Source of the DNA: Candidatus Moraniibacteriota bacterium
GTDB lineage: Bacteria > Patescibacteriota > Minisyncoccia > Moranbacterales > UBA1568
Reading direction: 5' to 3'
Length of the DNA: 56,070 nucleotides
Assembly: GCA_023261645.1 (NCBI GenBank)
Contig: JAHFOO010000008.1
Coordinates: forward strand, 1-56,070
Numbering within the stretch: the first letter of the stretch is position 1; the number at the start of each line of letters is the position of its first letter. Both the position numbers and the translations under genes were made by a program. Shown piece by piece: positions 37,968-54,805 of the stretch. A model generated the notes under the pieces. The model made no database searches. It was not told where the DNA came from and was given only the letters and a program-made list of their open reading frames with translations.

Positions 37968-38006
37968 ACGCTTAATTTATTAATATTTATATTACAATTA
38001 CAGGGC

Positions 38007-39456: not shown

Positions 39457-39462
39457 AAAGAT

Positions 39463-40044
39463 ATGTTTTGTAAAAATTGTGGAAAAGAAGTCAGTCAAGA
39501 AGCAAATTTTTGTAAAAATTGCGGCGACTCAACAAAAGAATTAATTGTAGAGTCACTAAACAGTACAAACAAAAGTGTGGTTTCTGAGAAAAAACTTGTC
39601 CCAGAACTTACAGAGGATGGTATTTCTAAGTACAGAGGTATTCATGGTTGGCTTATAGTAGTAGTTTTGGGGCTGTTTATTACAACTGGTTATGTAGGTT
39701 TTCAATTTCTGGATATATTTTTTGGCAGCGTTCAATATGGTGAAAATACTGGACTATTTGTTTATGATTTTTTGAGCATGGGCTCAGTTACGGTTTTGTC
39801 TATATATGTTATTTACCTTTTTTTTACAAAGAAAAGAAAGTTTCCAAAATACTATATTTCTTTGCTGATTCTTCTTATGGTAGTTAATATAATTACGCTC
39901 ATAGTAGTATCATCCTACTCAGTAACCGGAAGTGATCTTGCGGAATACTCAAATAACGCCGGGAGAGCCACTGTTCAAGCGATAGTTTGGGGATTATACG
40001 CAACTAAGTCTAGGCGTGTCAAAGCGACATTCGTGGAAAATTAG
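39463..40044 (+). CDS. N-terminal zinc ribbon plus DUF2569-like membrane protein
   Basis: 193 residues. MFCKNCGKEVSQEANFCKNC forms the zinc ribbon; after a linker, IHGWLIVVVLGLFITTGYV begins a four-helix membrane domain of the DUF2569 type (GWL start, then short loops). It starts 6 bp after the preceding gene. The ribbon is at the N-terminus here but at the C-terminus of the neighbour. Confidence 0.7.
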   Translation: MFCKNCGKEVSQEANFCKNCGDSTKELIVESLNSTNKSVVSEKKLVPELTEDGISKYRGIHGWLIVVVLGLFITTGYVGFQFLDIFFGSVQYGENTGLFVYDFLSMGSVTVLSIYVIYLFFTKKRKFPKYYISLLILLMVVNIITLIVVSSYSVTGSDLAEYSNNAGRATVQAIVWGLYATKSRRVKATFVEN

Positions 40045-40067
40045 GCAATTATATAACTAAATGATCT

Positions 40068-40604
40068 ATGGATTGTCCGAGTTGTAGAAAAAGTATTGGT
40101 GCAGATGCTGTTTTCTGTAAGTACTGCGGAGTGGAAGTAGCCCCAATGCGAGTGAAACTTCTGGCTGAAATGTATATCGAGCCAGAAACACAAGAACATC
40201 CATCTGCGTTGCCCGTTGCACAAAGTATAAAAAAAATTCCACAACCTTCAATATGGGAGTCTATTAAAGGCTTGTCTTCATTATGGGATGTAGTCAAAAG
40301 TTCATCTGGAGTTGTCAGAGTGATTTTGTTATTTATAGGTCTGAATGTAATTTTATGGGGAGCTCAAGAGCTTTACTATTGGGGTGATTCACAAAAGATG
40401 GGGGAATTAGATACTCAAATTACGAGTATGGATAGTCAAATAAAAAGTATAGAAAGCTTTCCAAATACCACAACTCAAAGCCAATACGAAAGTTTAATTA
40501 ATAAGAGAAACAAGGCTGCAGATGAGTATAACGCTCTAGTTAAATCGTCTGGTACTAGATGGTATTTAATACCGATCCCTCTAGGTGGCCATTCACTAAA
40601 ATAA
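40068..40604 (+). CDS. Zinc-ribbon single-pass membrane protein, 178 aa
   Basis: MDCPSCRKSIGADAVFCKYC ribbon, a soluble linker, one transmembrane helix (VVRVILLFIGLNVILWGAQE, about residues 84-103), then a coiled-coil-like periplasmic segment (MGELDTQITSMDSQIKSIES). The predicted end overlaps nothing important; the next gene starts 17 bp later. No family beyond the ribbon. Confidence 0.65.
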   Translation: MDCPSCRKSIGADAVFCKYCGVEVAPMRVKLLAEMYIEPETQEHPSALPVAQSIKKIPQPSIWESIKGLSSLWDVVKSSSGVVRVILLFIGLNVILWGAQELYYWGDSQKMGELDTQITSMDSQIKSIESFPNTTTQSQYESLINKRNKAADEYNALVKSSGTRWYLIPIPLGGHSLK

Positions 40605-40621
40605 CTATTAACTTTAAAAAT

Positions 40622-41203
40622 ATGTTTTGTACAGATTGTGGGAAGTCACTAGAGAAAGACAGCGTTTTTTGTGAATTCTGTGGGGCTAAACAAGCAGAAG
40701 CAGGGCCGACAACAGAACCGGGGGCATCTATTTCGGATCAAGTAATGAGTTTAAAAGGCGAGAGTCCAATCAATGCTTCAAAAGAAATTTTAAATAAAGA
40801 ACTTAAACAGATGGCTGACCATCTTGAGTTTCTAGGGTATGGGATTGAAAAGTTAGAAACTAGCGGAGATGACAAAAGAGAGAATGTTTTTGCACAGCAT
40901 CCAAGTAACCTTGATTTTACATTACTGGAAGTATTCCCAGGCTTTATTATTCTCAAAGTGCTAATGGCGACAAAAAAGAAGCCATCTTCAGAGATCGACG
41001 CTTTTATTAATGATATGAATAAGAACTTTATAATTTCGAAAATCTATCGTGAAATAGAGAATGAAACTGTATACCTCAGAATCGAATCAATTTATATGGG
41101 TGTTTACGTTAAGGATCTGTTTGTAAAGTTTATGGACCTGAACATTAGGGAGCATAATCAATTACGATCATCAGATGATTTTACTAATTTGTTTGTAAAT
41201 TAA
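40622..41203 (+). CDS. Zinc-ribbon protein with YbjN-like soluble domain
   Basis: 193 residues from the ATG at 40622, where the ribbon MFCTDCGKSLEKDSVFCEFC begins exactly as in its neighbours; the open frame to 40559 runs through the previous gene. No transmembrane span is obvious. The remainder alternates strands and helices (LDFTLLEVFPGFIILKVLMA) and could be a small alpha/beta domain; the resemblance to YbjN-type folds is only impressionistic. Confidence 0.6.
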   Translation: MFCTDCGKSLEKDSVFCEFCGAKQAEAGPTTEPGASISDQVMSLKGESPINASKEILNKELKQMADHLEFLGYGIEKLETSGDDKRENVFAQHPSNLDFTLLEVFPGFIILKVLMATKKKPSSEIDAFINDMNKNFIISKIYREIENETVYLRIESIYMGVYVKDLFVKFMDLNIREHNQLRSSDDFTNLFVN

Positions 41204-41207
41204 ATTA

Positions 41208-41744
41208 ATGGAAAAATTTAAATCAATAGTTTCGGCATTCTTTGTTATTATCGGCATAGCTTTTGGTATCTTCATATTTGTTAAAAGTTCTGTGCTTACC
41301 ATATGGTCGTCACCATCTGTTCCCGAAACGTATGCAATTAATGGTGCTGATGGTAGATCGATTAAAATAATATTTTTGCCAGAAAATAAAACTATAATGT
41401 GGTATAAAGATCCCAATGTTGGTTCTGAAGAATATAACTTAGTCGAGATGAAGGGAACATATGGGACGCATTATTTCTGGGGACTATGGAAAATAGAAGG
41501 CCCCGGTATTGCTTTTGGGTATAGATTTTATCCTGATGGAACTGAACCAGTTGTAATGGAGACAAAAACAATTCAAAAATACATGAACGGAAAAGGCGAT
41601 CCCAACTTTTCTCCAGTTGGTAAAATTACAAATACCACTTGGCTATTTCGGAAAGATTCTGCCAAGTTTCAGGATATGTGGTTGCAAAAAGAAGAAAACA
41701 ACAATTTATTTATTTCACAGTTATTAAATAACTTGGAGAGGTAA
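41208..41744 (+). CDS. Signal-anchored protein, 178 aa
   Basis: N-terminal helix (IVSAFFVIIGIAFGIFIFV) followed by a soluble, beta-rich exported region with many aromatic residues (IMWYKDPNVGSEEYNLVEMK, HYFWGLWKIEGPG). It starts 4 bp after the preceding gene. No family recognised. Confidence 0.6.
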   Translation: MEKFKSIVSAFFVIIGIAFGIFIFVKSSVLTIWSSPSVPETYAINGADGRSIKIIFLPENKTIMWYKDPNVGSEEYNLVEMKGTYGTHYFWGLWKIEGPGIAFGYRFYPDGTEPVVMETKTIQKYMNGKGDPNFSPVGKITNTTWLFRKDSAKFQDMWLQKEENNNLFISQLLNNLER

Positions 41745-41764
41745 TTAATTTTAATTATAGTCAT

Positions 41765-42076
41765 ATGAAAAAGATTTTAATTTTCCCGCTGCTTTTGTCG
41801 GCATTATTACTATCAGGCTGCAGCGATACAAATTCCTCGGCACTTACTAACACTGCCGTGCCTTCAACAACATCGTCTAAAGCAACCGTACCTGCCGTAG
41901 CTCCCTCTACAAAAACATCCGCTTCTGAAAATACAACAAATCCAAATGTCAAAAAAAGTACCTCTGGGATCTGTCATGCTAAAGGGTCTACCTATTACGG
42001 TAGAACGTTGAATTTTACTGCTTACGATACTATAGATGATTGTCTTAATAGCGGGGGAAGAATGCCAAAAAAGTAA
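41765..42076 (+). CDS. Small lipoprotein, 103 aa
   Basis: Signal peptide MKKILIFPLLLSALLLSGCS with lipobox LLSGC (Cys 19). A Ser/Thr/Ala-rich linker follows, then a compact Cys-containing end (GICHAKGSTYYGRTLNFTAY, DDCLNSGGRMPKK). The two remaining Cys could form a disulfide. Envelope-attached protein of unknown function. Confidence 0.65.
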   Translation: MKKILIFPLLLSALLLSGCSDTNSSALTNTAVPSTTSSKATVPAVAPSTKTSASENTTNPNVKKSTSGICHAKGSTYYGRTLNFTAYDTIDDCLNSGGRMPKK

Positions 42077-42081
42077 TTTGA

Positions 42082-42729
42082 ATGAGTATGGAGTTCGGTA
42101 CTGAAAACATGGGCAGAAAGAAAGCAATAGTATTATTTGCAGCCCTTTTTGTTTTTGTAGTTGCTGTCGCAGTTTATGCCGGATCATTACTCAGGCACCA
42201 ACGAGATGATATTGGGGTAATAGCTTCTCCTTTGACTGATACTCCTGCCAAAGAGATAGGTATCTTGCCGGAGCAAGGGACTGTTAGCGTGGAATCGGCT
42301 GAGGCAAAATGCCACGTTGTTGATGGCCTCCCTGACCTATTATGCACACCTGGGGTAACCGATTCTCGGGTTACACAAGAAAATATTAAAGACACAATTT
42401 GTAAGTCTGGTTATACAAAGACAGTCCGTCCTCCAGTTACAGTGACTTCAAAAATCAAAGAGCAAACAATGAAAGACTATGGATTTACAGATAGCCCAAG
42501 TAACTATGAGTTAGACCATCTTATTTCCCTGGAGCTTGGCGGCTCCCCGGATGATGTAAAGAATTTATTTCCTGAGCCCTATAATATTGAATTGGGTGCC
42601 ACAAAGAAAGACACTGTGGAAAATTATCTTCACGCTCAAGTATGTAGCGGGCTACTCACGCTTAAGGAAGCTCAGAAGGCAATCTCGGAAAACTGGGTGC
42701 TAGTGTATCAGACAAATATTGTGAAATAG
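42082..42729 (+). CDS. Exported HNH-like nuclease domain protein
   Basis: 215 residues from the ATG at 42082; a second in-frame ATG at 42109 directly precedes the signal anchor (KAIVLFAALFVFVVAVAVYA). The C-terminal half has YELDHLISLELGGSPDDVKN then LFPEPYNIE, the DH...N..PE pattern of HNH/endonuclease VII-like domains, with several Cys. A secreted or surface nuclease is inferred; metal-site residues beyond DH are not certain. Confidence 0.65.
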   Translation: MSMEFGTENMGRKKAIVLFAALFVFVVAVAVYAGSLLRHQRDDIGVIASPLTDTPAKEIGILPEQGTVSVESAEAKCHVVDGLPDLLCTPGVTDSRVTQENIKDTICKSGYTKTVRPPVTVTSKIKEQTMKDYGFTDSPSNYELDHLISLELGGSPDDVKNLFPEPYNIELGATKKDTVENYLHAQVCSGLLTLKEAQKAISENWVLVYQTNIVK

Positions 42730-42756
42730 TTTGATATAATGATCAACTGAATTTTT

Positions 42757-44766
42757 ATGGTAGATGGAATCTTTATTTTTCTGGTTAGTGCGGCGGTTGT
42801 TGCTTTGGTGACAATCGCTAATAGATTGTTTGCGAATGGCGGAGATTCTTTGCGAGATAAGAAAGAGGGCCATAATGAAAAGAAACTTGAAACAGTACAG
42901 CTTACCGTAGTTAAAAGTGAGGCTAGTTTAAAAAAAACTGCTAATACAGTAGAAGAAATACCTGGTAAAAAGAAACTTGAAGTAACGACAACTCTACAAA
43001 AGAGAGTATGGACAGTAATAAAAAGAATCAGTAGAAAATATAACCACCTACTTCTGTTTGAGCTCCTAGTGATTCTTACCTGCTTATTTGGCTACATATC
43101 TATCTACAAGCTAGGATCGCCAAATGCTGAATATAACTCTTTCTATAATTATTATTTATTACAATACTTTTTTCTCAAAAAAATACTTCTAACTATTGCT
43201 ATAGCGGTAGGGGTAGCACTTTCTTTAATAATCGTTTTGGCTCTATTGAAAAAGAAACGTTTTAAGAAGAAATACGCAGTCCATTCTTTTTCAGTAGTTG
43301 CGGTCATAATCCTGGCTTTCAATATATCCTTTTTAGCTATCTATGCTTTTTCTTTTGTTGAAACTAGATACTTGCAATATGAAATATCTTCAAACCAAGA
43401 GACGCATGGACTTATCTGGGGCAATGATAAGCTTGTGTCAAAATTAGAGAGCGAAGTAGCGTCACCGCGGATAGTGAAAGCAGAAGAGAACCCAAGCAAT
43501 CAAATAGTTCGGTATATTGTCTCAAATAGAAAGAATAGAGGAGACTACTATTTGCAGAAGATATTAAATGGTGTACTAAACAAATTTCCTACAAACCTCG
43601 GTATTCCTAGTGAGGCTCCTTTGTTCATGTATAGTGATAATTTGTATATAAGAAAACTTGAAAAAGATTCTTATGCAGCGATCAGTCCAATTTTAGGCAA
43701 GCTTTTAGTAAAAGGTGCTTTACCAGATAGGAATATTAAAGATGAGCCCTCCCTCCTTGTAATGGATCGAGAAGAATACAATACCTTCCGTATAGACCAA
43801 ATTAATGAGCATATAGCAAAGATGAAGGATGCCATAGCACGAATTACGAAGGTAGTGAACTCCTACTACTCGGCAGTTTCCTATGATAAAGGGAGGGTTA
43901 ATTATAATGTAGGCATGGCAAATTCGATGATAGCAGAAGGAAACTCAGCCTATTCAAGTTGTATCCGAGCACAAAGCTGTACCTATAACTACATCCCCGG
44001 AACTTGCACATACTATCCATACGTTTATTGTAGTCCTGGATACTCTTATCAAACTTGCCTGCCAAGATATACTCCCTCATACTGTTCGGGTCAAATGGAT
44101 TTTTACTACAACCTTGCTGACGGATATAATAGAAATGCGAATGAATGGAGAGATCAATTGGGTTACGATCAGTATTATCTTGGAGTATATGTTGATTTAA
44201 GAGATACAGTAGAGACATATAAAGCTATGGCTGAAGCGTCTAAAGAAGACGTACCTTATGAGTTAGGTTTGTTTCAGCCGGATCTTGGTATAAAGGTTGT
44301 TTTGGAATCAGATAATCCAGAAACCGTGGCGGATAATATAGGTATCTTAGTCCATGAGTATCTTCACTACACGAGCTATGTTCCCGATATGAGTTTACCG
44401 ACATTCTTTGAAGAGGGTCTGACAGAATATTTCTCAAGAGAGATTGTTGACAAAAATATGGGAGTAAAGACAAAGATCGGGTACCCACTGATAACAAAAG
44501 TAATCGAAAGGATGACCGAAAAGATTTCGGAACAAGAGTTCAGAGACATATACTTTTCTAAAAATAGTGCTCTCCTAACGAGTACCCTGGATCGAGCTTA
44601 CGGTAAAGATTTTTCAAAGAAATACGAACTCTATTTTGAATTCATTTCCTATTTGCCACCAAAGGATGCTCTAGAAATTACAAATAAGTTTTTGGATAAG
44701 ATAGGTGTTGAAAAAATAGTTGAAGAAGACTTGTATAGTAAAGCGAGTGAGTTTAATGCCAATTGA
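42757..44766 (+). CDS. Large membrane protein with zincin metalloprotease domain
   Basis: 669 residues. Membrane segments near residues 4-20, 98-120, 142-168 and 175-205 precede a long extracellular region with a Cys/Tyr-rich insert (CTYNYIPGTCTYYPYVYCSP). Near residue 535, VHEYLHYTSYV is an HExxH zinc site and FFEEGLTEYFSREIV about 20 residues later gives the third ligand (gluzincin, peptidase MA-like). It may process surface proteins of the host or neighbours; target unknown. The largest gene of the element's accessory region. Confidence 0.75.
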   Translation: MVDGIFIFLVSAAVVALVTIANRLFANGGDSLRDKKEGHNEKKLETVQLTVVKSEASLKKTANTVEEIPGKKKLEVTTTLQKRVWTVIKRISRKYNHLLLFELLVILTCLFGYISIYKLGSPNAEYNSFYNYYLLQYFFLKKILLTIAIAVGVALSLIIVLALLKKKRFKKKYAVHSFSVVAVIILAFNISFLAIYAFSFVETRYLQYEISSNQETHGLIWGNDKLVSKLESEVASPRIVKAEENPSNQIVRYIVSNRKNRGDYYLQKILNGVLNKFPTNLGIPSEAPLFMYSDNLYIRKLEKDSYAAISPILGKLLVKGALPDRNIKDEPSLLVMDREEYNTFRIDQINEHIAKMKDAIARITKVVNSYYSAVSYDKGRVNYNVGMANSMIAEGNSAYSSCIRAQSCTYNYIPGTCTYYPYVYCSPGYSYQTCLPRYTPSYCSGQMDFYYNLADGYNRNANEWRDQLGYDQYYLGVYVDLRDTVETYKAMAEASKEDVPYELGLFQPDLGIKVVLESDNPETVADNIGILVHEYLHYTSYVPDMSLPTFFEEGLTEYFSREIVDKNMGVKTKIGYPLITKVIERMTEKISEQEFRDIYFSKNSALLTSTLDRAYGKDFSKKYELYFEFISYLPPKDALEITNKFLDKIGVEKIVEEDLYSKASEFNAN

Positions 44767-44782
44767 TTTAAAAGAGAAACAT

Positions 44783-45265
44783 ATGATAGAAGAAATGTCA
44801 CAAATTATTAAAGATGAAAAAAATGGTTTTTTAGAAAAGTATCTTAATCGGGATACGGCTTTTATAACTGTTATTATTATTCTCGCTGGATTCTTTTTAG
44901 TACCACAGATATGGAGTAAAAATCCGTATAAGGCAGGTACGCAGTATTTTGTTTACCTTTTCCCAGATATTAATTCATCACTAAACTACAGACTTCCCGC
45001 AGATATTCTAATAGAGGAAGACTGTACTGGAGGGGAATGCGAACACGATATTCAAATAGAGACTGTTTACCTTGAGAATGGAAGTAGTAAGTATTTTGGA
45101 TGTATCGTTCAGCTCAAATATGAAAATTTCTGTAAAGATCAGGATGGAAAGGAATGGATGATTGTTTTGAGTGATTGGGAAGAAGCGAAAACAATAAAAG
45201 AGATTAAAGATTCAAAGAAAAAGGTAGATGATATTGTAAATAGCGTGATGAGTGAGGATCATTAG
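44783..45265 (+). CDS. Single-pass membrane protein, 160 aa
   Basis: From the ATG at 44783 (AAAGAGAAAC just upstream): MIEEMSQIIKDEKNGFLEKY, a transmembrane helix (FITVIIILAGFFLVPQIW), then an exported domain with several acidic stretches and Cys (ADILIEEDCTGGECEHDIQI). In-frame ATGs at 44756 and 44720 overlap the peptidase gene and are less likely. No family recognised. Confidence 0.6.
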   Translation: MIEEMSQIIKDEKNGFLEKYLNRDTAFITVIIILAGFFLVPQIWSKNPYKAGTQYFVYLFPDINSSLNYRLPADILIEEDCTGGECEHDIQIETVYLENGSSKYFGCIVQLKYENFCKDQDGKEWMIVLSDWEEAKTIKEIKDSKKKVDDIVNSVMSEDH

Positions 45266-45522
45266 TTGTTCACCCTACAGAAAATACTTTGTATGAACTA
45301 GTGGCAAAGAATGGAACTCAAGTAACATCACAAACGCTCAATGTTCAGTATCCTTTATCAGTGAAGAAAACAGTTGCTCAAAATCCTGTAAATGTGGTTA
45401 ATGAAGCTTCTGATACTTCACAAAATGAAAATAATTCTAGTGCAGTCGGACTGTTGGTGGCGATAGTGGGTGGGGGAACTGTGTGGGCGGTAAGAAAATA
45501 TTTAGGAAAAAGGGTGCTCTAA
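45256..45522 (+). pseudogene. Fragment of an Ig-like surface protein with a C-terminal anchor
   Basis: The frame opens at 45256, has a TTG at 45289 but no ATG, and reads VVHPTENTLYELVAKNGTQV, the TPTxNTxYxLxAxNG pattern of one bacterial Ig-like repeat. A linker and a membrane helix (SAVGLLVAIVGGGTVWAV) end it. It looks like the 3' remnant of a longer surface protein; translation from the TTG is possible. Confidence 0.5.
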
Positions 45523-45568
45523 GAGAATAGATTGTTAGAAATTTAGTGAAAGAAAATTATTGTGACTC

Positions 45569-46930
45569 CTAATTCGATATATTTCCTGATGGAGCCTTCT
45601 TCCTACGGATGTATTTAAAAAACTTTCTTTGTTGTGAGGATATTCCTCGGCCTATGTTTTTCATAACTTCCCCAGCATTTTTTATATAGATGCCTCCTTT
45701 TCTTTTCTTAATTAATCCAATGGCGCTTGGTTGTTTACGTGGATTTTTGTAAGTTTGTCTGTCTAAAAACTTTTGAACTTTCTTGTGCGCCTTTCTGTAT
45801 GCATTCTGTAATGTTTTTCCACGTACTTGGACATTAGATCCATTAAATTCGAAGCCGAGATAGTCAATAAACTTTCGCCCCAATACTTCTCCGTTCCCCG
45901 TTTTAACTTCAACACATACCACAGAACCGTCGCATAGTCTTTTAAAAGTAGCGATAAATGCCTTAGCTGGATTTATCTTTAGTGCATGTAATTTTATCGA
46001 CTCGCACAACGAAGAAAAAACAGCCTCTTTTTCGGGAATGGCACAGACGATTGCAATATCGTCACTGTATCTTCTGTATAACGTGTGAGGAAACTTTTTT
46101 ACAAATTCATAATCAAATAGAGACATGTAAATATTTGCTAAAAGCCCACTCAGAGCACTTCCCTGGGGTATTCCTATAGGCGTTTTGTTTTCTTTAATAG
46201 TTCCATTCCGTCCCAACTCGTATATTGCCTTCACTAGTGGATACTTATTGTGCCTAACCTTTTTCGAAACTTCTAAAATAAACTTTGCATATGTACTAAA
46301 CTTTCTTCGGTGGTGACTATCGTTTAACACATACCTAAATGCTGTTAAGGATCTCAGCACTTTGTATTCATCTCCCGACAGTTTGTTGCCGAGAATCATG
46401 GAAATATTTTCTTTCAGTATCCTGTGGTTTAAAGTATCAAAAAACTTTGAAATATCTGCAATAATTACCGCGCATTCGCCGTTACTTTTGATGTGGTCAA
46501 ATATCTCATGCGCAAAAAAGATATTGTTTTTTCCTTGTAGATTGTCCTCTTCCTTTGTAGCTTTCCTGCTCCTGTATGCTATTGTGTTAGTCTCAATACC
46601 CTTTTCGCGCACAAAAACTTCATATTTTTTACCCCATTGATATGCATAGAAACTGTATATGTGTGCATCAAGATGAGAGGCGTACATGATGGGTCTCTCC
46701 TTTATAGTTCGTATAGGGTTCTTATCTTTATCTTTTCGATATCGGATATCTTTCTTAATGAATTTTACTAAAGGGAGAAATTGATGCGTGCTTATATTTT
46801 TCAATGTAGTTACAACTTGCTCAAAGTCTCGAACATTGTCTATGTCTAGAGTTCTATCAAAATGTCTATATGCACGTTTTCTCTGTTTTGGTTTTAGCGA
46901 CTCCTTCCATTGTGTGTACACCTCTTCCAT
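45569..46930 (-). CDS. Divergent reverse transcriptase
   Basis: 453 residues. Conserved RT blocks: a palm Asp in VIIADISKFFDTLNHRIL, GIPQGSALSGLLANIYMSLF (block 4), the catalytic RRYSDDIAIVC with YSDD, and KINPAKAFIATF (block 6/7). A basic C-terminal region of about 100 residues with clustered Lys/Arg follows, without an HNH or maturase X domain. There is no SQ motif as in diversity-generating retroelements. It best fits the diverse 'unknown group'/abortive-infection-type RTs, some of which are phage-defence systems; the exact class is undetermined. It lies downstream of a structured leader. Confidence 0.85.
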   Translation of the reverse strand: MEEVYTQWKESLKPKQRKRAYRHFDRTLDIDNVRDFEQVVTTLKNISTHQFLPLVKFIKKDIRYRKDKDKNPIRTIKERPIMYASHLDAHIYSFYAYQWGKKYEVFVREKGIETNTIAYRSRKATKEEDNLQGKNNIFFAHEIFDHIKSNGECAVIIADISKFFDTLNHRILKENISMILGNKLSGDEYKVLRSLTAFRYVLNDSHHRRKFSTYAKFILEVSKKVRHNKYPLVKAIYELGRNGTIKENKTPIGIPQGSALSGLLANIYMSLFDYEFVKKFPHTLYRRYSDDIAIVCAIPEKEAVFSSLCESIKLHALKINPAKAFIATFKRLCDGSVVCVEVKTGNGEVLGRKFIDYLGFEFNGSNVQVRGKTLQNAYRKAHKKVQKFLDRQTYKNPRKQPSAIGLIKKRKGGIYIKNAGEVMKNIGRGISSQQRKFFKYIRRKKAPSGNISN

Positions 46931-47337
46931 AAATTTATTTCGTATATGTAAAAACCCTTGTCCTCTGGCGAGCTTATCAGCATGCTCTTGGACAAGGGTT
47001 CTGTGGGCAAGCCCAGGCTATATTCATTGACATGTGTCCAAAAGGAGACACAAGGCTGACGGAACTACATTGATATAATAGTAATGACTATGACTCAAGA
47101 ATGGCTGCACTCTATCGTCGCTGACATCATTATTATGTTGTTCATCACGACCGCGAGCCGAGGCTTGCATATCGTTGTAAACACATCGCCTAACACCCCT
47201 AGAAGCAAGACGGTAGTATAGCCAATTCCTTCTTGAACCGAACGTTAGTCATAACATCATATCACAATGGATCGGTTTCCGCAAGAGCTGAAGATGCTTC
47301 ATCTCTCTCGTTTTAATTTTGATAACGTTCTCATCTA
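46931..47337 (-). ncRNA. Structured non-coding leader of the reverse transcriptase (candidate ncRNA)
   Basis: 407 nt without a convincing minus-strand gene, more GC-rich than its surroundings. On the minus strand there are AGATG/CATCT (47291-47303), a CTTG-AACCG / CGGTT-CAAG two-part stem (about 47232-47286), GTGTC/GACAC (47034-47051), GGG/CCC (47005-47014) and finally AACCCTTGTCC/GGACAAGGGTT (46953-47000) followed by TTTTT 20 nt before the RT start. CTGGGCTT (47009-47016 complement) can instead pair with AAGC/CCAG inside that last hairpin. RT templates or regulators of this kind are known for retrons and DRT systems; the role here is inferred. Confidence 0.55.
47084..47221 (+). CDS. Possible small hydrophobic peptide, 45 aa, antisense to the RT leader
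   Basis: ATG to TAG, reading MTMTQEWLHSIVADIIIMLF then ITTASRGLHIVVN and a polar end: a short hydrophobic peptide. TATAAT (47074-47079) lies only 4 nt before the ATG. It is antisense to the candidate ncRNA, an arrangement reminiscent of type I toxin-antitoxin pairs, but such an ORF can arise by chance in 400 nt. Confidence 0.25.
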   Translation: MTMTQEWLHSIVADIIIMLFITTASRGLHIVVNTSPNTPRSKTVV

Positions 47338-47604
47338 CTAATAAATACGGAAGGCCTTACTCTTCTTCTTCCACATGCATGCGCTTATAGCGTCTTCTGA
47401 TGTTTTAAATTTATTATACTCATCAAATGTATAATAATCCCCTTTATCATTGGACACGACATTCTGTTCCCTTGGTGGCTGATAGTGAACTTCGCTGACG
47501 CACCAACGAGTTTTAGAAATGTACCACCATCCACCCAAAATCGGTACTCCAACTAATAGAGCAATGCCAAGAACCTTAATAATCTTTTTGTCAGTGTTAT
47601 TCAT
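47338..47604 (-). CDS. Small membrane protein, 88 aa
   Basis: MNNTDKKIIKVLGIALLVGV begins a single helix (about residues 9-29), followed by an exported region with two Cys (RWCVSEVHYQPPRE, ISACMWKKKSKAF). First gene upstream of the RT leader on the same strand, so it may share a transcript. No family recognised. Confidence 0.55.
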   Translation of the reverse strand: MNNTDKKIIKVLGIALLVGVPILGGWWYISKTRWCVSEVHYQPPREQNVVSNDKGDYYTFDEYNKFKTSEDAISACMWKKKSKAFRIY

Positions 47605-47904
47605 AGTGTTTTATTGTCGTTATTGAACATTATTTGCTTCTGTCTCCTGCCCCGTCGACCCGTTAAATAGGGGATTAAAATTAATTTGATTTAAAAATCA
47701 GGAAAAAAAATTAACAAAACTATTATTTTAAGCCATTACTTCGTTTAAAAAGGTATTTTGTTTTTTTATTCTTTAAACAAAACCCAGCTAAAATATTTTG
47801 ATAAATTTGATTTTTTTAGAAAAAAATATTTTGTCTTTTTCTGTTCAGGTCGTCATACATTTTTTAACTTAAGGGACTCTCAATCTCAATCCTCCTACCC
47901 CTGG
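47605..47904. other. Very A+T-rich gap, possible replication origin
   Basis: 300 bp without a supportable gene. 47671-47870 is nearly all A/T with long T and A tracts; AAAATATTTTG (about 47790) recurs as AAAATATTTTG (about 47823), and ATTTTGTTTTTTTATTC precedes them. Such tracts suit DNA unwinding or a control region for the circular form. No iteron array is evident. Confidence 0.35.
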
Positions 47905-48168
47905 CTACCAGAGATTAAAAAATACATACAAAGAAAGTGCCGTGATTAACAATTCTGCAAATAGACCAATGACAATCCAAGATTTTGTTACTGGAGTACT
48001 ATGATTTATTCCATTTTCTCGAACATCTTTTCTTAATGCAGAACTAGCAGAAAAATCGACCATGAGCAGAGCAACTATTGTCCAGCCTAGCTGTGATGGC
48101 AATGCAGAATCTGCCATTGACAAAAATATGAGTGCAGCAATACCAATTAGGTTAGAAATTATCGACAT
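47905..48168 (-). CDS. Small two- or three-helix membrane protein, 87 aa
   Basis: MSIISNLIGIAALIFLSMAD and LGWTIVALLMVDFSASSALR are the first helices; the last is SWIVIGLFAELLITALSLYV. Only a short charged loop (RKDVRENGINHS) lies between. No family recognised. Part of the minus-strand run 49574 to 47338. Confidence 0.6.
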   Translation of the reverse strand: MSIISNLIGIAALIFLSMADSALPSQLGWTIVALLMVDFSASSALRKDVRENGINHSTPVTKSWIVIGLFAELLITALSLYVFFNLW

Positions 48169-48200
48169 AGCGTTTTAATTAAGAGTTTCCACACGCGCAC

Positions 48201-48722
48201 CTATAGCTCCTTTTTTCCTATGCACTGGTTATAGTCAAAGGTATCTATGCTTTTCTTATTGCTTCTGCATCGACTTACTCTCTCATCCGTTTTAGTGTTT
48301 TGGTAATCGACGCTTAAATCTTCGTTTGCACACCCATCCTCTCTAAATTGCTTTTCCGCTAACTCTTTCCCAATCTGAGAAACTATCATGCCCTCTATAG
48401 GCAGTCTTCCTTGTAAGCACTCTATCTTTTTTTGGTTTACTCTAGACTCATTCATTTTCTGATTTACTATAATAGCGTCCATTTTTTGTTTTTCTGATTT
48501 TTCTGCAAACAAAGCAAGTGTCCCAAATACTATAAAAATAAGTAGAGCAATCGGTAGCAAAGCAATTATAATTTTTTTAGATTTATTATAGGAACTAGTG
48601 AGCTTCTGAGGCGTTAGCTGTTTTTTGATATTTACCATCGTACCTTCCAACCATTCGCCACAAAACCGACACTTTTTTGCATCATCCTTTACTTCTTCTG
48701 AACAAAATGAACATTTTTTCAT
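48201..48722 (-). CDS. Zinc-ribbon single-pass membrane protein, 173 aa
   Basis: MKKCSFCSEEVKDDAKKCRF with CGEWLE forms an N-terminal double-CxxC ribbon. A basic stretch and one helix (IIIALLPIALLIFIVFGTLA, about residues 50-69) follow, then an exported helical region with Cys pairs (ECLQGRLPIEG, DGCANEDLS, RCRSNKK). The fifth zinc-ribbon membrane protein of the element, here on the opposite strand from the other four. Confidence 0.65.
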   Translation of the reverse strand: MKKCSFCSEEVKDDAKKCRFCGEWLEGTMVNIKKQLTPQKLTSSYNKSKKIIIALLPIALLIFIVFGTLALFAEKSEKQKMDAIIVNQKMNESRVNQKKIECLQGRLPIEGMIVSQIGKELAEKQFREDGCANEDLSVDYQNTKTDERVSRCRSNKKSIDTFDYNQCIGKKEL

Positions 48723-48743
48723 AATAGTTATTTCTTTTAAACT

Positions 48744-49301
48744 TTACAGGGGCGGATATACAACCCAAATAACAACCATAATGACAATAAAGAAGATTAT
48801 CCAGCTCCATTTCATTTTCATCTTGGCAGTCAACGTGTATTTAACTGGGATGAGAATATTCCAACTAAAAAGAAATATTGTTATCCCTATTCTCCAATTG
48901 AAAAAGATATACACTAACCCGAATAACGCACATATCGATATCGCATTATTTCCATACTTATGGAAGTAATATTCGGGATAAAACATTCTGTTTTGTTCTC
49001 TAAATTTTATATATTCATCGGGGCTAACCGTGTCTTTATACTTTTTAAATGCTTTATGCCTCGCAATAAAAAGAGGTATATAAAAAATGATAACACCCGC
49101 AAATGCAAAAATTAAAAACCATAAGAAATCGAGCTGGACGAGAGAAATGACTCCTGAAAACAAAACGCCTATCCCTACTATGCTTATCCAATGCATCTTA
49201 GCCGGACTAAGAACTTCTCGAAGTATATCTTTTTGCTCTATAGTCATTTCATCTGCGTCTAAGCCAAAACCTTTATCAAACATCTCTTTGTCGTTATCCA
49301 T
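48744..49301 (-). CDS. Four-helix membrane protein, 185 aa
   Basis: MDNDKEMFDKGFGLDADEMT is a soluble acidic start; membrane helices follow at about 37-55 (WISIVGIGVLFSGVISLV), 57-80, 120-150 and 160-182 (WSWIIFFIVIMVVIWVV). A charged middle loop (ARHKAFKKYKDTVSPDEYIK) is cytoplasmic by charge. No family recognised. Confidence 0.6.
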   Translation of the reverse strand: MDNDKEMFDKGFGLDADEMTIEQKDILREVLSPAKMHWISIVGIGVLFSGVISLVQLDFLWFLIFAFAGVIIFYIPLFIARHKAFKKYKDTVSPDEYIKFREQNRMFYPEYYFHKYGNNAISICALFGLVYIFFNWRIGITIFLFSWNILIPVKYTLTAKMKMKWSWIIFFIVIMVVIWVVYPPL

Positions 49302-49319
49302 AATCTTTTTAGACCTGAA

Positions 49320-49574
49320 TTAAAAATAGTTCTCATGTTTGTTTCTGTCATGAAACCACGCCCAAATAAATAGCCACGCAACGATATATGTTAATGAAGT
49401 TTTGACACTCCAGTATGAGTCTGTAAGCCAAGCCATTCCTTCCCCAGTTCTTCTAAGAAAAAAAGAAAGTCCCATACAAAAAACCAGAATGAGTCCTGGC
49501 GTCAATGCGGCAAAAAACAAAGATACTAATATTTCTAAACAATATCTCCAAAAATTCGATTTTTCACTTCCCAT
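49320..49574 (-). CDS. Small membrane protein, 84 aa
   Basis: Two helices (CLEILVSLFFAALTPGLILV and SLTYIVAWLFIWAWFHD) around a short loop. First gene of the minus-strand cluster and directly downstream of the structured leader at 49606-49746. No family recognised. Confidence 0.55.
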   Translation of the reverse strand: MGSEKSNFWRYCLEILVSLFFAALTPGLILVFCMGLSFFLRRTGEGMAWLTDSYWSVKTSLTYIVAWLFIWAWFHDRNKHENYF

Positions 49575-49605
49575 AACTTTAACTAAGGATTATTTTTTAG
49601 ATAAC

Positions 49606-49746
49606 AAAAAAGGACAGCCGAGTTGTTCACCCACAACAGACAGCCTCGAAAGGAAGTCCAATCATGGAACTCGACTGCCCCTTACTACCCACGATTGGAT
49701 AGAAAAAAAGACAGTTTCCTTTCGAGAAAATCTATTGTAGGTGAAC
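49606..49746 (-). ncRNA. Structured minus-strand RNA with interleaved helices and terminator
   Basis: In minus-strand order: arm A (49746-49689), arm B (49681-49668), arm C (49667-49625), arm D (49624-49612), then a run of six U. A pairs with C (GTTCACC, ACAA, CTCGAAAGGAA and CCAATC blocks); B pairs with D over 13 bp, forming an intrinsic terminator. The two pairings interleave, so they are a pseudoknot or alternative states. All five single-base arm differences are G.U pairs on the minus strand but A.C mismatches on the plus strand. Probably a leader attenuator or small RNA. Confidence 0.7.
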
Positions 49747-49845
49747 GGATAAATATTATTACATATTATAGAAAAACACAAACCCAGCTTGATTGTAGAG
49801 TCTGCTTAGAGTAGGGTAAGAGTGAGTATTTTTGGATTCAATCTT

Positions 49846-50730
49846 ATGAGCAAAAAAAAGCGGAATAATTATCAAGAGCAAGTGGAGGATCTTATAAAAC
49901 AAGGTAAAGATTTTGAGTATATAGAGAAATTTACTCAAGAAAATTATCCTGAGGAATGGGAGAGGGAAAAAGTGTCTATTGAGACATTCAACAAAAGGAT
50001 ACTAGAAGAAAATGAAAGGAGTATGAGCGCACAAGCATACACTAAGATATCACGTCATTTGGCTGATGTTGTAGTTAGTGCAGATTTTATAGATGAGATA
50101 CAAAAATTAAGGAGAAAATACAAAATACCAGAGAATGGGTTCTCTGTTAATGACCCACATGAAATTGAAGAGCATACCAAAATGAGTCTATGGCCAATCG
50201 AATGGAAATATATAGATGAAGACGAAGACTTAGACTTATACTTTAAAATTGAGGATGAATTAATTCGCCTTGCTATTGCTTTTGGATTACCGCCTCAATG
50301 TAGAGTTTTATTTGACCATTTAGTTTACCGGGATAAGAATTCGCAACTAAACTCAGACGCATCTTTGTGTTATATCAGCGATAGGCTGGAAGAACGAAAA
50401 TATAAAGATGAAATGGTTAATGATTTCTATTACCCGATAGCTATCAGGGTTCATCCGGGGGCATCTCAAAATGATATAACGGATTTTATTAAAAAAAATT
50501 ACACAAGCATTATTAAGCCACTTCAGGAAAAATACGAGGATAAGATGTGCCCTGTAGGAAAAACTCGAAATCGAAAAATCGATATACGGCAGCGTAACGA
50601 TTTCATATACGAAAATAGGGAGAAAAGCGGGAAAGAAATAGCTTCATTGGTATTAAGAAAATTTGGAGTATCTATTGACCATGGGCACGTTCTTAAAATA
50701 ATTTCCTTAGAGAGAAAAAGAAGAAGTTAA
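49846..50730 (+). CDS. Hypothetical protein with C-terminal helix-turn-helix, 294 aa
   Basis: Start at ATG 49846 (MSKKKRNNYQEQVEDLIKQG); a GTG at 49822 with AGGG 5 nt upstream would add 8 residues and is a real alternative. Soluble, charged and helical, with LDLYFKIEDELIRLAIAFGL in the middle and RNDFIYENREKSGKEIASLV then RKFGVSIDHGHVLKII at the end, an HTH-like segment. It is the first plus-strand gene of the replication/recombination module and may be a regulator or initiator. No family recognised. Confidence 0.6.
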   Translation: MSKKKRNNYQEQVEDLIKQGKDFEYIEKFTQENYPEEWEREKVSIETFNKRILEENERSMSAQAYTKISRHLADVVVSADFIDEIQKLRRKYKIPENGFSVNDPHEIEEHTKMSLWPIEWKYIDEDEDLDLYFKIEDELIRLAIAFGLPPQCRVLFDHLVYRDKNSQLNSDASLCYISDRLEERKYKDEMVNDFYYPIAIRVHPGASQNDITDFIKKNYTSIIKPLQEKYEDKMCPVGKTRNRKIDIRQRNDFIYENREKSGKEIASLVLRKFGVSIDHGHVLKIISLERKRRS

Positions 50731-50773
50731 GTGTGGCATAGTTAGTTCTTATCCAAAAACAACCCGATCGATT

Positions 50774-50803
50774 AACCTAGCTTTAAATAGCTAGGTTTTT
50801 TTA
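50774..50803 (+). terminator. Terminator after the 49846 gene
   Basis: AACCTAGCT (50774-50782) and AGCTAGGTT (50789-50797), loop TTAAAT, followed by TTTTTATTT. Confidence 0.88.
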
Positions 50804-50838
50804 TTTCCATCTGTAATTTTAATCATTAAGTAAAAAAT

Positions 50839-51186
50839 ATGTTCAGCCAGGATTCGTTATCTAAGTTACTAACAAAAAAAATAACATCTATGGAAGGCAA
50901 GGGATTTGGTATAGGGAGGATTTTCAACCGCTTAAGAAAAATGAGGGTTTGCGAATGCTTAAGTGATTTAGCGATACTAAGACTAATTCTTTATGAATTG
51001 CAAGGCTTAGAGAGGCTTCCATCAAGAAGCAAGATTTTGCATCATTTTCGAACCAAAATACCGAAAGAAGATTGGAGAGGAGTTCTGAAGACAGAAATTT
51101 TGAGCGATCTTTGTAATCCTATGAATATATCAAATTTTAAGGCACTTTCTTTGTGTAAGAGGTCTGTTAAATTGAAAAATCGATAA
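50839..51186 (+). CDS. Hypothetical protein, 115 aa
   Basis: MFSQDSLSKLLTKKITSMEG start. Basic, soluble and helical, with three or four Cys scattered (MRVCECLSDLAILR) and a basic end (ALSLCKRSVKLKNR). It lies between a terminator and the primase-like gene. It could be a small DNA-binding protein by charge; no family recognised. Confidence 0.5.
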   Translation: MFSQDSLSKLLTKKITSMEGKGFGIGRIFNRLRKMRVCECLSDLAILRLILYELQGLERLPSRSKILHHFRTKIPKEDWRGVLKTEILSDLCNPMNISNFKALSLCKRSVKLKNR

Positions 51187-51195
51187 GTTACCTCA

Positions 51196-51357
51196 ATGAC
51201 CAAAGAATACCAGGTAAAACTGATGTTTTCTGAAAAAGAAGAAGATGAAAATAAACTTCTTTTGGTCTTTGAATATATCCTTAATCTTCAAAATAAAGAT
51301 AAACAAGATGAATCAAAAATACACGCAGGAAATGTTGAGGGAAATAGAAATAAGTGA
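51196..51357 (+). CDS. Small acidic ORF, 53 aa, overlapping the primase start
   Basis: ATG to TGA reading MTKEYQVKLMFSEKEEDENK, LLLVFEYILNLQNKDKQDES and a polar tail. It overlaps the first 50 nt of the next gene in another frame. Length and amphipathic character resemble small phage/plasmid regulatory ORFs, and the overlap suggests translational coupling. Confidence 0.4.
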   Translation: MTKEYQVKLMFSEKEEDENKLLLVFEYILNLQNKDKQDESKIHAGNVEGNRNK

Positions 51358-51952
51358 GCTTTCCGATTTTTCTCATGAACTGGAAAAAGTATGGAGGAGA
51401 TCTCGTTTAAAATTCACGGATAAGGAGCTTGTCTCCCTATTTCCTGAAGCCAAACAAATTATCTCTCAAAAAATTGAAGAATGGAAAGAAGTTTTAAAAT
51501 TGAAAAGAGAAACAGTTAGGTGTTCATTGAAAGAAATCTATAAACTAAATGTTGATGATCTATCAAAATGGTTTGGAGAATATATGGTTGAGGTATTCCT
51601 TTTCAATGAGGTAAAGGGAATTTATAAGCATATTGGTAGATTACAAAGACAGTTGATGCAGATTAATGGTGAACAAGGGGTTCGAATAGAATTTTGGGAC
51701 AATCAATTAGAGAAGGCACGAGGAAAACCAATAGCGGATATTGCAGAGCAAAATCTCCTAGTAAGAAATATCGGAAATAGATTTTCAGCTAAATGTCCTT
51801 TTCATGAAGACAAAACACCAAGCTTTTATATTTATCCAGAAACAAATACATATCACTGCTTTGGATGTCAGGCTCATGGGGATGTAATTAATTTAACCAT
51901 GCATTTATACGGACTTTCTTTTAAGGAGGCGGTACAAATGCTTAATCAATAA
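51308..51952 (+). CDS. CHC2 zinc-finger primase-like protein
   Basis: 214 residues from the ATG at 51308 (MNQKYTQEMLREIEISELSD). The first 140 residues are charged helices; the last 60 hold RFSAKCPFHEDKTPSFYIYP and TYHCFGCQAHGDVINLTMHL, the CPFHxDxTPS...CFGC zinc finger of DnaG-type primases. The TOPRIM catalytic domain is missing, so it may bind DNA for another polymerase or helicase. The RepA-like ATPase follows 6 bp later. Confidence 0.85.
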   Translation: MNQKYTQEMLREIEISELSDFSHELEKVWRRSRLKFTDKELVSLFPEAKQIISQKIEEWKEVLKLKRETVRCSLKEIYKLNVDDLSKWFGEYMVEVFLFNEVKGIYKHIGRLQRQLMQINGEQGVRIEFWDNQLEKARGKPIADIAEQNLLVRNIGNRFSAKCPFHEDKTPSFYIYPETNTYHCFGCQAHGDVINLTMHLYGLSFKEAVQMLNQ

Positions 51953-51958
51953 TATCGT

Positions 51959-53005
51959 ATGGATGCCTTTGAAAAGTTGAAAGAAGAAGCTAAAAATGAA
52001 GTCATTTCTGAGGGAAAAGGAATGAATTTTCTCACTATTAAGGATGTGTGGAATATGGTATTCCCTCCAAATAGATGGGTTGTGGATCAAATTGTCCCTT
52101 CTGAGGGTATTACAATCATCTCTGGTGCACCTGCGAGCTATAAGACGTGGCTTATCCTTCAGATGGCTATTAACATATCAAGAGGAGAATCGTTCTTAGG
52201 AAAGTTCAATACTGAGAAGGGGAATGTATTGATGATTGATGAGGAGAATCACCTTCAATTAGTTAAAGATAGACTTATTCTTTTAGGAGGAGATGATTTG
52301 CTCTCTATCTGTTTTCTTTCTCAACAAGACTTCTTAATCACAGACGAGAGAATGGTGAAGAAAGTGCTATCTATGTGTGAAGAGAAAAGTATATCAGTTA
52401 TATTTATCGATTCACTTGTGAGAATAAATCGTGCTGATGAGAATGATGCCTCTAGAATGTCTGAAGTCTTCCGAGCTATAAGAAGCCTTTGTAAGGCAGG
52501 GAAGACAGTTATTCTTACCCATCATGAGAAGAAAGAAGGGACATTTAAGCTCTCTCCTCAATCAAGAATGCGAGGATCATCAGATATTTCTGCTTCAGTT
52601 GATGCTCATCTAGCGATATCTCGAGATAGAGATAATAAGACATTTCTGATTCTCGAGCAGGCTAAGAATAGACGAGAAATGGAAATTGCTCCGTTTGGAG
52701 TCGAGGTTAAGAAAGAGAATAATCGTGTTTGGTTTGAATATAAAGGAGATTATGATATGGGGAAAAATAAGAAAGGTGAAGCCAGAGAGTCTATCCTCCA
52801 GATGCTCGAAGGCTATCCTGATGGTATGACGAAAGGAGATATTTCAATACAGATTTCTGAAACCTGTAAGATTGGAGCAAAGAGTTGTAGAGAAGCGTTG
52901 GATGATTTAATTAAAGAGGAGCTTGTGAAAGAAAAACCTGGTGTTGGTAATACGAAACACTGTGTATTAGCGAAATATTCTGTTGATGAACAAGGGGAGA
53001 TTTGA
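51959..53005 (+). CDS. RepA-like RecA-fold ATPase (AAA_25) with C-terminal winged helix
   Basis: 348 residues. Walker A is GAPASYKT in EGITIISGAPASYKTWLILQ; MIDEEN and VIFIDSLVRINRADENDASR give the second strand and Walker B; TVILTHHEKKEGTFKLSPQS and MRGSSDISASVDAHL are sensor regions of RepA/RSF1010-type helicases. The last 80 residues (ARESILQMLEGYPDGMTKGD) look like a winged helix. With the CHC2 protein it forms a replication module. Confidence 0.88.
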   Translation: MDAFEKLKEEAKNEVISEGKGMNFLTIKDVWNMVFPPNRWVVDQIVPSEGITIISGAPASYKTWLILQMAINISRGESFLGKFNTEKGNVLMIDEENHLQLVKDRLILLGGDDLLSICFLSQQDFLITDERMVKKVLSMCEEKSISVIFIDSLVRINRADENDASRMSEVFRAIRSLCKAGKTVILTHHEKKEGTFKLSPQSRMRGSSDISASVDAHLAISRDRDNKTFLILEQAKNRREMEIAPFGVEVKKENNRVWFEYKGDYDMGKNKKGEARESILQMLEGYPDGMTKGDISIQISETCKIGAKSCREALDDLIKEELVKEKPGVGNTKHCVLAKYSVDEQGEI

Positions 53006-53057
53006 AATGGCGAATTGGCATGTATATATAGTAGTGCCATTTTGCCGATTCAAAGTG

Positions 53058-53066
53058 TGGTATAAT
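53058..53066 (+). promoter_or_regulatory. Extended -10 promoter of the recombinase leader
   Basis: TGGTATAAT: TATAAT at 53061-53066 with TG one base before it. Transcription would start near 53073, one base before helix A of the leader. Confidence 0.6.
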
Positions 53067-53073
53067 GTAATTA

Positions 53074-53194
53074 CTTATCCAACAATGTTACCTGCGAGTT
53101 TTATTTTGCCAAACTAAAAGGGTAACCATGCTGACAAACCTCGCGGAATGTTGGATAAGTCATGGTTACCCCTTTAGTTTTTATTTTTATTATT
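53074..53194 (+). promoter_or_regulatory. Interleaved-helix attenuator leader of the serine recombinase
   Basis: Helix A pairs CTTATCCAACA (53074-53084) with TGTTGGATAAG (53149-53159), perfect over 11 bp, supported by GCGAG (53094-53098) with CTCGC (53140-53144). Helix B pairs 53111-53130 with 53161-53180, including GGGTAACCATG/CATGGTTACCC, and is followed by TTTTTATTTTTATT, an intrinsic terminator ending at the start codon. A and B interleave (A-B-A'-B'), so only one state or a pseudoknot can form. This suggests transcription attenuation of the recombinase; ligand or trigger unknown. Confidence 0.7.
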
Positions 53195-54805
53195 ATGAAT
53201 AAGGCAGCAATATATCTTCGTGTTTCTAGCGAAGAACAAGTAAGAGGTTTTGGACTAGAAGTACAAGAAGAAAAACTGAGAGACTACTGTAAGTTGTATG
53301 ATTTTGAAATTGAGGAAAAACACGTATTTCGTGAGGAGGGTGTTAGCGGCGCAGAGAGAAATAGACCAGAGTTAAACCGAATGCTTGTTTGTGCTGAGAA
53401 GAAAGAATTTTCTGTTGTTCTCGTATATAAAATAGATCGTCTATCAAGACTATTACTACACCTTCTTGAGGTTACAAATAAATTCGAACAACTTGGTGTT
53501 GGCTTTCGTTCTGTTACTGAGCCTATCGATACAACTAACTCTTTAGGAAGATGTATTTTTCAGATTCTCGGATCATTTGCAGAGTTTGAAAGAGGGGTCA
53601 TCAGAGAGAGGACTTATGGTGGTCAAATCAAGAATAAACAGCAAGGAAATTGGGTGAGCGGTATTACTTCTTATGGTCGTGATTATGATAAAGTCACAAA
53701 AAAACTTGCAGTGAATGAAGAAGAAGATAAATGGGTTCAAAAAATGTTTGAATGGATGACGAAAGATAGAATGTCTTTACATGGTATTGCAGATAGACTT
53801 AATGCTTTAGGTGTCCCAACAAAGTATGACAATCTTGGAAAAAAGAAAAAGGTGAACGGAACTTGTTATTGGAGACCGAGAGCCGTAGGAAGAATTATTG
53901 CTAACAGTACCTATACTGGCACCTTCACTTATAATAAATATGAGAATTCAACAGTTGGCAGTAAGTTACGACCAGAGGATGAATGGATTCCTATTGAAAC
54001 ACCTAAAACAATCAGTAAGGAAATATTTGATCTAGCTCAAGAACAACTTAAATCAAATAGGCGCTTTTCATTAAAGAATGCAAGACATATTTATCTTTTT
54101 TCTGGAATACTTAATTGTGGGGACTGCGGGGGCAGATATGCAGCGAGTTATGATACGGGTAGGAAGACGATGTCAGAAATACAGAAGAAAAGATATTACT
54201 GTAATAATACTCGAAAATATGTTCGTCAGCTGACGTGTAAAGTTCCTAGTATTACTGAACACAGACTAGCAAACCCTATTTGGGAGAAACTTCTTGGTTT
54301 GCTGGAGGATCCAAATGTTGCACTTGAACAATTAGAAAAATTGAACGAGAAAACTGGAGAGCTTAATGATGCTCACACAAGACTAGCCGAAGCAGAGACT
54401 CTTTTGGAGAAAAATACTGTAAAACAGAAGAAGCTTTTAGATGCTTTCTTAGAAGTGGAGGGCGGACTTGAACAGAAGGACTTTCTCTCTAGAAAGCATG
54501 ATTTAGAGGAAGATAAGAATAAGCTTTTAGATGAGAAGCGACGTTATGAGTCAATGCTTATATCTGATGGCGAGAAGAATACTCGTGTAAATGCGATTCA
54601 GATTATGTATCGAAAAATCAAAGAAAACCTTACTAATATTTCTTATGAACAAAAGAGAGAGGTGCTGAAGATGTTGGTAAATAAGGTTATTGTTACTGGT
54701 TCTGAGATAGATATTCACTGCAATATACCCTATCAATTTGCTTTTGCGGAACAGAGCACTCGTTTCCCGTATCGATCCCGGAAGGATTCGGCAGAAGGGA
54801 AGTGA
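53195..54805 (+). CDS. Large serine recombinase (integrase)
   Basis: 536 residues as integrated, starting at ATG 53195. The resolvase/invertase domain has the nucleophile Ser in AIYLRVSSEEQ, then EEGVSGAERNRPELNRML and YKIDRLSR; the recombinase domain follows (GIADRLNALGVPTKYDN, RIIANSTYTGTFTYN), then a zinc ribbon (LNCGDCGGRYAASYDTG, YYCNNTR, TCKVPSITEHRL) and a coiled-coil. Residues 1-522 are element-encoded; the last 14 (RFPYRSRKDSAEGK) come from host DNA beyond attR. In the circle the frame continues for 111 other residues. Confidence 0.95.
   Translation: MNKAAIYLRVSSEEQVRGFGLEVQEEKLRDYCKLYDFEIEEKHVFREEGVSGAERNRPELNRMLVCAEKKEFSVVLVYKIDRLSRLLLHLLEVTNKFEQLGVGFRSVTEPIDTTNSLGRCIFQILGSFAEFERGVIRERTYGGQIKNKQQGNWVSGITSYGRDYDKVTKKLAVNEEEDKWVQKMFEWMTKDRMSLHGIADRLNALGVPTKYDNLGKKKKVNGTCYWRPRAVGRIIANSTYTGTFTYNKYENSTVGSKLRPEDEWIPIETPKTISKEIFDLAQEQLKSNRRFSLKNARHIYLFSGILNCGDCGGRYAASYDTGRKTMSEIQKKRYYCNNTRKYVRQLTCKVPSITEHRLANPIWEKLLGLLEDPNVALEQLEKLNEKTGELNDAHTRLAEAETLLEKNTVKQKKLLDAFLEVEGGLEQKDFLSRKHDLEEDKNKLLDEKRRYESMLISDGEKNTRVNAIQIMYRKIKENLTNISYEQKREVLKMLVNKVIVTGSEIDIHCNIPYQFAFAEQSTRFPYRSRKDSAEGK
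54757..54761. other. attR core CACTC
   Basis: Right junction; element sequence (GGAACAGAG) to the left, host lamin-tail sequence (GTTTCCCGTATCG) to the right. In the restored attB, CGATGAGGAG and TCCCGTATCG flank the core as weak inverted arms. Confidence 0.85.

Follow-up and report, generated by a model that had tools for sequence, protein, structure and literature searches.

The window analysed here, the whole 56,070-nucleotide stretch at positions 1 to 56,070 of contig JAHFOO010000008.1 from a Candidatus Moraniibacteriota bacterium (assembly GCA_023261645.1), contains a reverse transcriptase (RT) gene preceded on the same strand by a structured leader, both inside an integrative element (Table 1). 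RT and leader form a candidate DRT2 system, in which the RT would assemble a gene, neo, by copying a template in a non-coding RNA (ncRNA). The RT family, the structure and covariation of the leader, the geometry of the repeat unit, its open frame and the element were computed directly.

The RT gene is intact and carries the motifs GIPQGSALSG and YSDD. Its product is a single-domain protein with RVT_1 as sole Pfam match, in agreement with a first-pass annotation of this DNA, made by eye, that had described an RT with these motifs and no maturase domain. The PADLOC Drt2 profile PDLC03757 matches residues 7-443 (6e-103, 343 bits), while the runner-up, UG17, reaches 82 bits; a Drt2 model also ranks first in NCBIfam, with 295 bits. 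By sequence the closest solved chain is the DRT2 RT of Klebsiella pneumoniae, KpDRT2 (PDB 9c0i, 9e-42). An AlphaFold2 model of the window RT (mean pLDDT 77.5) likewise has 9c0i as its best predicted match in the PDB, with a Foldseek E of 1.6e-29 and a Z of 30.6 over 394 residues, the next entry having Z 22.6. In a tree of DRT2s from several phyla and four non-DRT2 outgroup RTs, a sample with DRT2 as its only UG class and in which PADLOC scores two of the four outgroup proteins as other RTs, the window RT lies within DRT2 (support 100/100). There it forms one clade (98/99) with the RTs of three relatives, L029, L001 and L003, which PADLOC also calls Drt2. The L029 RT is 50% identical to that of the window (tblastn), and L001 and L003 are labelled Patescibacteria. 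The catalytic aspartates D159, D290 and D291 are invariant in the RT alignment. About 18 thumb residues, around KLYxxYxHxGxxN, are apparently absent from the window RT and L001 as compared with the other aligned DRT2s; the pseudoknot of KpDRT2 is contacted by a lysine-rich thumb linker (PMC12596737). The Drt9 profile, tried as another assignment, gave 54.6 bits against 343 for Drt2 and was rejected. The window RT is thus firmly a member of DRT2 (UG2), a divergent one and no new class. Profiles, fold and tree bear out the earlier suggestion of a DRT-type RT with an upstream ncRNA, as does the grouping inside DRT2 and not with group II introns, but the proposal of an undescribed member gives way to a divergent branch of a known family.

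The 407 nt upstream of the RT (46931-47337) contain no sense-strand gene; the upstream edge, 47338, is the end of an unrelated 88-residue open reading frame. As the annotation had noted, the leader is more GC-rich than its surroundings (0.41-0.44 versus about 0.37) and structured: it folds more stably than shuffled sequences (z -3.0, 1/100), and about 20 nt separate the RT ATG from a 12-bp hairpin with a trailing UUUUU. Despite this hairpin and U-run no intrinsic terminator in the leader satisfied the scan rule, and no Rfam family matches it. The leader is non-coding, as described, only on the sense strand. A frame on the opposite strand is open at 47060-47218 and contains the predicted neo repeat, which had been missed. 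The real ncRNA is probably shorter than 407 nt, running from about 47270 to 46941; its 5′ end was placed near 47270 because the helix arm that would pair with the template 3′ end starts at 47265. This helix is strong in the window only and not significant in L029, L001 and L003. It resembles the template hairpin of KpDRT2.

On the 3′ side of the template all four leaders share the order pseudoknot strand 1, hairpin A, a linker (AUGAAUA-like in three of the four), hairpin B, and hairpin C with pseudoknot strand 2. MAFFT alignments put the 3′ hairpins in the wrong places, and the comparison of helices was therefore manual, on only four sequences; alignment A1 was too poorly conserved to serve as a scan query. 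The pseudoknot strands covary, from GUCAGC/GCUGAU in the window and UCAGC/GCUGA in L029 to GCUGAC/GUCAGC in L001 and L003. The arms of hairpin B read UGGGC/GCCCA, CAGA/UCUG, UAACU/AGUUA and AACUA/UAGUU in the four loci, so that pairing is kept while the sequence is exchanged. The inner stem of hairpin C is imperfectly paired in L001 and L003, and the arms of hairpin A in L001 were unmatched by the script as entered, the hairpin being present in the L001 fold. The covariation analysis that the annotation had called for found the structure kept, with covariation, in three relatives. What had been named as speaking against an RT-ncRNA system, a leader lacking conservation or covariation, an RT clustering with group II introns or an overlooked gene in the leader, was not found in the sense strand.

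Copying of the KpDRT2 template yields tandem repeats that join so as to create the promoter TTGACA-17-TATAAT and that are read in a frame without end (PMC12039810, PMC11100668). A unit of this kind is predicted in the window. When the 114-nt unit is arrayed in tandem, TTGCAT comes to lie at exactly 17 bp from TATAAT and the 38-codon frame stays open; a scan of the linear leader found no TTG/TATAAT-type promoter. The unit rule, drawn from the window, L001 and L003, places the start immediately in front of the pseudoknot and 5 nt before the -10 element, and the end 12 nt after a TTG-type -35 element, summing to 17 bp. L029 was found by a later genome search, after the rule had been fixed, and fits it with a unit of 111 nt, TTGCAT and TATAAT. 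The units of the window, L029, L001 and L003 measure 114, 111, 171 and 150 nt, each a multiple of 3, and all four are open in one frame only and have the 17-bp junction promoter beside the pseudoknot. GUU or GUA is found at the position of jump motif 1 in the three relatives as well.

With the start restricted to within 4 nt of the place beside the pseudoknot, 33, 19, 39 and 30 of 6000 shuffles (for the units of 114, 111, 171 and 150 nt, respectively; 0.3-0.65%) did as well, figures that should not be multiplied across loci, since these share ancestry and three of the four served to derive the rule. When the scan demanded exactly 5 bases ahead of the -10 element and identical triplets, the window unit escaped it because GUU and GUA differ; a freer scan recovered it. 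As a control, the scan of Idiomarinaceae DRT2 loci returned TGT jumps (RNA ACA) and TTGACA-17-TATAAT split 6+11, matching the published KpDRT2 layout. Units bounded by ACA were also considered in the window, where six pairs have a length divisible by 3 and none is stop-free. The predicted complementary DNA (cDNA) start carries GATAT, which is the KpDRT2 primer sequence, shifted by one base; this may be chance. Support for the neo unit is good at the level of the clade and moderate for the window taken alone.

Table 1. Features of the RT locus and of the element that carries it, in window coordinates.
Feature	Position	Strand	Basis and remarks
Drt2 RT	45569..46930	-	453 aa, YSDD; PADLOC, NCBIfam, PDB match, tree
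DRT2-type ncRNA, approximate ends	46941..47270	-	Fold z -3.0; helices common to four loci; 5′ end inferred
Hairpin C	46952..47001	-	12 bp and inner 4-bp stem, then U-run; fold and four-locus comparison
Pseudoknot strand 2, GCUGAU, in hairpin C loop	46976..46981	-	Covariation with strand 1
Hairpin B of 3′ scaffold	47004..47015	-	Paired in 4/4 loci, sequences differ
Hairpin A of 3′ scaffold	47033..47052	-	7 bp; kept in four leaders
Pseudoknot strand 1, GUCAGC	47055..47060	-	Covaries with strand 2 across four loci
Putative jump motif 2, RNA GUA	47066..47068	-	Just 3′ of template; UGU at 47069-47067 yields same repeat
Predicted repeat unit	47069..47182	+ (template in ncRNA, -)	114 nt, 38 codons, stop-free in single frame (IDIIVMTMTQEWLHSIVADIIIMLFITTASRGLHIVVN); homologous units in L029, L001, L003
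-10 element TATAAT of predicted junction promoter	47074..47079	+	Unit scan
-35 element TTGCAT of predicted junction promoter	47165..47170	+	3/6 consensus; 17 bp to next repeat's -10; identical hexamer in L029
Putative jump motif 1, RNA GUU	47180..47182	-	Template 5′ end; UGU at 47183-47181 yields same repeat
Predicted head-to-tail junction of 114-bp repeats			...GTAAAC / ATTGATATAAT
5′ arm, predicted pairing to template 3′ end	47245..47265	-	Duplex -17.9 kcal/mol, z -4.5 in window
Integrative element	37590..54761		17,167 bp; CACTC at both ends
CHC2 zinc-finger (DnaG-type primase) protein	51245..51952	+	Pfam 2e-23
AAA_25 (RepA/helicase-type) ATPase	51959..53005	+	Pfam 5e-26
Large serine recombinase, element right end	53162..54805	+	Resolvase, Recombinase and zinc-ribbon domains; PHROG integrase 2e-110

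In view of the above, the locus is likely a divergent, so far Patescibacterial DRT2 (UG2) anti-phage gene-assembling system on an integrative element. Transcription, priming, jumping, second-strand synthesis, Neo expression, toxicity and defence are proposed by analogy. In this mechanism the upstream transcript would fold into an RT-bound ncRNA, and after priming the RT would copy the 114-nt template over and over, jumping from GUU at the template 5′ end to GUA just 3′ of the template. The product would be a tandem cDNA of the unit, in which each junction sets TTGCAT 17 bp before TATAAT and so creates a promoter that is not present in the genome's own order, the array as a whole forming one endless open frame (neo). 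After infection the array could be turned double-stranded and then transcribed from the junction promoters, and translation would give a repetitive hydrophobic Neo protein that arrests growth. The host encodes a transfer-messenger RNA, which would be useful for such stop-less messages.

It is also fairly probable, if less so than the general assignment, that neo is made in a distinct DRT2 lineage by way of a jump signal that is both relocated and different. GUU/GUA beside the pseudoknot would shift the junction by six bases in the spacer (12+5 and not 6+11) without altering spacing or frame. In that case the assembled promoter and frame would be under selection, and the ACA motif would not; Patescibacteria would defend themselves by gene assembly, and translation of Neo would probably be Shine-Dalgarno-less or leaderless. 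Despite changed jump signals, the combination of an assembled promoter with an endless frame seems to have been retained in a divergent clade; a Neo search rule independent of ACA follows, and what defines the jump site becomes testable by motif swaps. The discoverers of DRT2 were able to predict ncRNAs in divergent clades but had difficulty in annotating Neo there, and proposed that other mechanisms might operate (PMC11100668). None of the papers searched names DRT2 and Patescibacteria together, and the system would add gene-assembly defence to this group.

Several observations weigh against a neo-building DRT2 in the window. The 295 bits of the RT fall below the NCBIfam Drt2 equivalog cut-off of 390. 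Without positional restriction the window unit alone is not significant (45/150 and 354/3000 shuffles), its -35 element matches the consensus in 3/6 bases only, and the jump triplets GUU and GUA differ by one base. No evident Shine-Dalgarno site precedes the neo start codons. A test for frame-specific conservation showed that the similarity between the window and L029 units is not specific to the neo frame and therefore gives no support for selection on the Neo protein.

Some of these points would fit a DRT2-related RT-ncRNA system that makes repetitive cDNA which is not a gene, the DNA or a ribonucleoprotein being the effector and the open frame incidental. The lack of frame-specific conservation and the weak -35 element agree with this, the discoverers suspected such other mechanisms in divergent DRT2 clades (PMC11100668), and DRT9, which is related, synthesizes non-coding poly-dA (PMC12483538). 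Yet an in-frame, stop-free unit with a 17-bp junction promoter occurs at the homologous place in 4/4 loci, and we consider a non-coding product unlikely. The weak -35 element and mismatched jump triplets of the window could also be those of a decaying or inactive DRT2 copy, but the RT is intact with its catalytic residues, every scaffold helix is kept and the 38-codon frame is open, which makes decay quite improbable.

Slightly less probable still is that the leader has no template and serves as an ordinary structured 5′ untranslated region or attenuator of the RT gene. The hairpin and U-run directly before the RT start would suit this role; the covarying pseudoknot and the agreement of the template region with the DRT2 design argue otherwise, and DRT2 RTs are known to bind upstream RNA (PMC12039810). 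It is hardly conceivable that the RT belongs to a group II intron, diversity-generating retroelement or retron and that the leader is unrelated to it. RT folds are related, and a group II intron RT profile does match weakly (78.8 bits, cut-off 300); this assignment was rejected in view of the Drt2 score of 343 bits versus at most 82 for other families, the position in the tree, and the absence of a maturase domain and of any known intron RNA in Rfam.

The element around the locus, which the annotation had rightly placed in a Patescibacterial element, is a 17.2-kb serine-recombinase element. It interrupts a gene for an LTD/PKD-domain protein, of which remnants lie at 36929-37666 and 54693-56051 on the minus strand. 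This gene is uninterrupted in the related genome G595 (L038), and its flanking parts are adjacent in G610, G787 and G561 (L039-L041). PADLOC found no convincing second defence gene in the element. At 38007-44766 a run of genes on the plus strand encodes cargo proteins of small zinc-ribbon, DUF6804 and DUF2569 types and a 669-residue protein with a weak AI-2E transporter match. PHROG matches of a 103-residue protein (41765-42076), among them a weak one to Cor-type superinfection exclusion (4e-4), may hint at phage-related cargo. The DRT2s of L001 (region 1830-5006) and L003 (regions 3213-4538 and 7173-9105) likewise adjoin serine recombinases, and translations read by eye gave ParB/DNA-methylase-like and terminase-small-subunit-like frames nearby, which suggests from sequence that the carriers are prophage-like.

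The RT is rare. Among a sample of 380 genomes of the phylum the RT was found in the window's own genome only (0.84 Mb, 96% complete), and in the window's order in 3/131 genomes, two of which hold another DRT2 branch (L015, L016). No relative was found among viral contigs. The branch of L015 (1438-2769) and L016 (1318-2634) is of YCDD type and nearer the canonical Drt2 profile; its candidate neo units measure 141 and 147 nt.

The best-characterized counterpart is KpDRT2 (PMC12039810, PMC11100668, PMC12596737). Both systems combine a single-domain RT with an upstream ncRNA of about 280-300 nt in which the template precedes a pseudoknotted 3′ scaffold. The permuted -35 and -10 elements joined at 17 bp in tandem cDNA, and the endless antisense frame with a length divisible by 3 and a hydrophobic Neo, are predicted features in the window. 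The RTs share about 30% identity, and YSDD and the apparent loss of about 18 thumb residues in the alignment distinguish the window RT from KpDRT2, which has YCDD. The jump motif is ACA in KpDRT2 and GUU/GUA in the window clade, UGU being possible in the window, and the spacer is split 6+11 in the former and 12+5 in the latter, with the junction six bases further on. The window system differs further in its weak -35 element, in having no evident ribosome-binding site, and in residing on a serine-recombinase element in a Patescibacterial host.

DRT2 loci of Idiomarinaceae and Marinomonas (L006-L008, L002), whose RTs are 31-34% identical to that of the window, also have permuted TTGACA/TATAAT-type promoters, and the scan used for the window found units of 132 and 120 nt there that are in frame and free of stops. 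Their jump motifs differ, being RNA ACA (6+11) in Idiomarinaceae and a UAACA repeat (8+9) in Marinomonas. A Clostridia DRT2 (L009) has, upstream of 4932, a candidate 144-nt neo unit with TTGCAA-17-TATAAT and an 8-nt jump repeat (RNA AUAUAAUU), which is possibly another jump variant; 14/150 shuffles score as high. DRT9 (PDB 9vma, 9nlv; PMC12483538) resembles the window system in its upstream structured ncRNA and related RT fold, but copies a U-rich loop into poly-dA. No such loop was seen by eye at the template start in the window, and the window RT is far closer to DRT2 than to DRT9, both by PADLOC (343 versus 55 bits) and by predicted structure (Z 30.6 versus 16.8).
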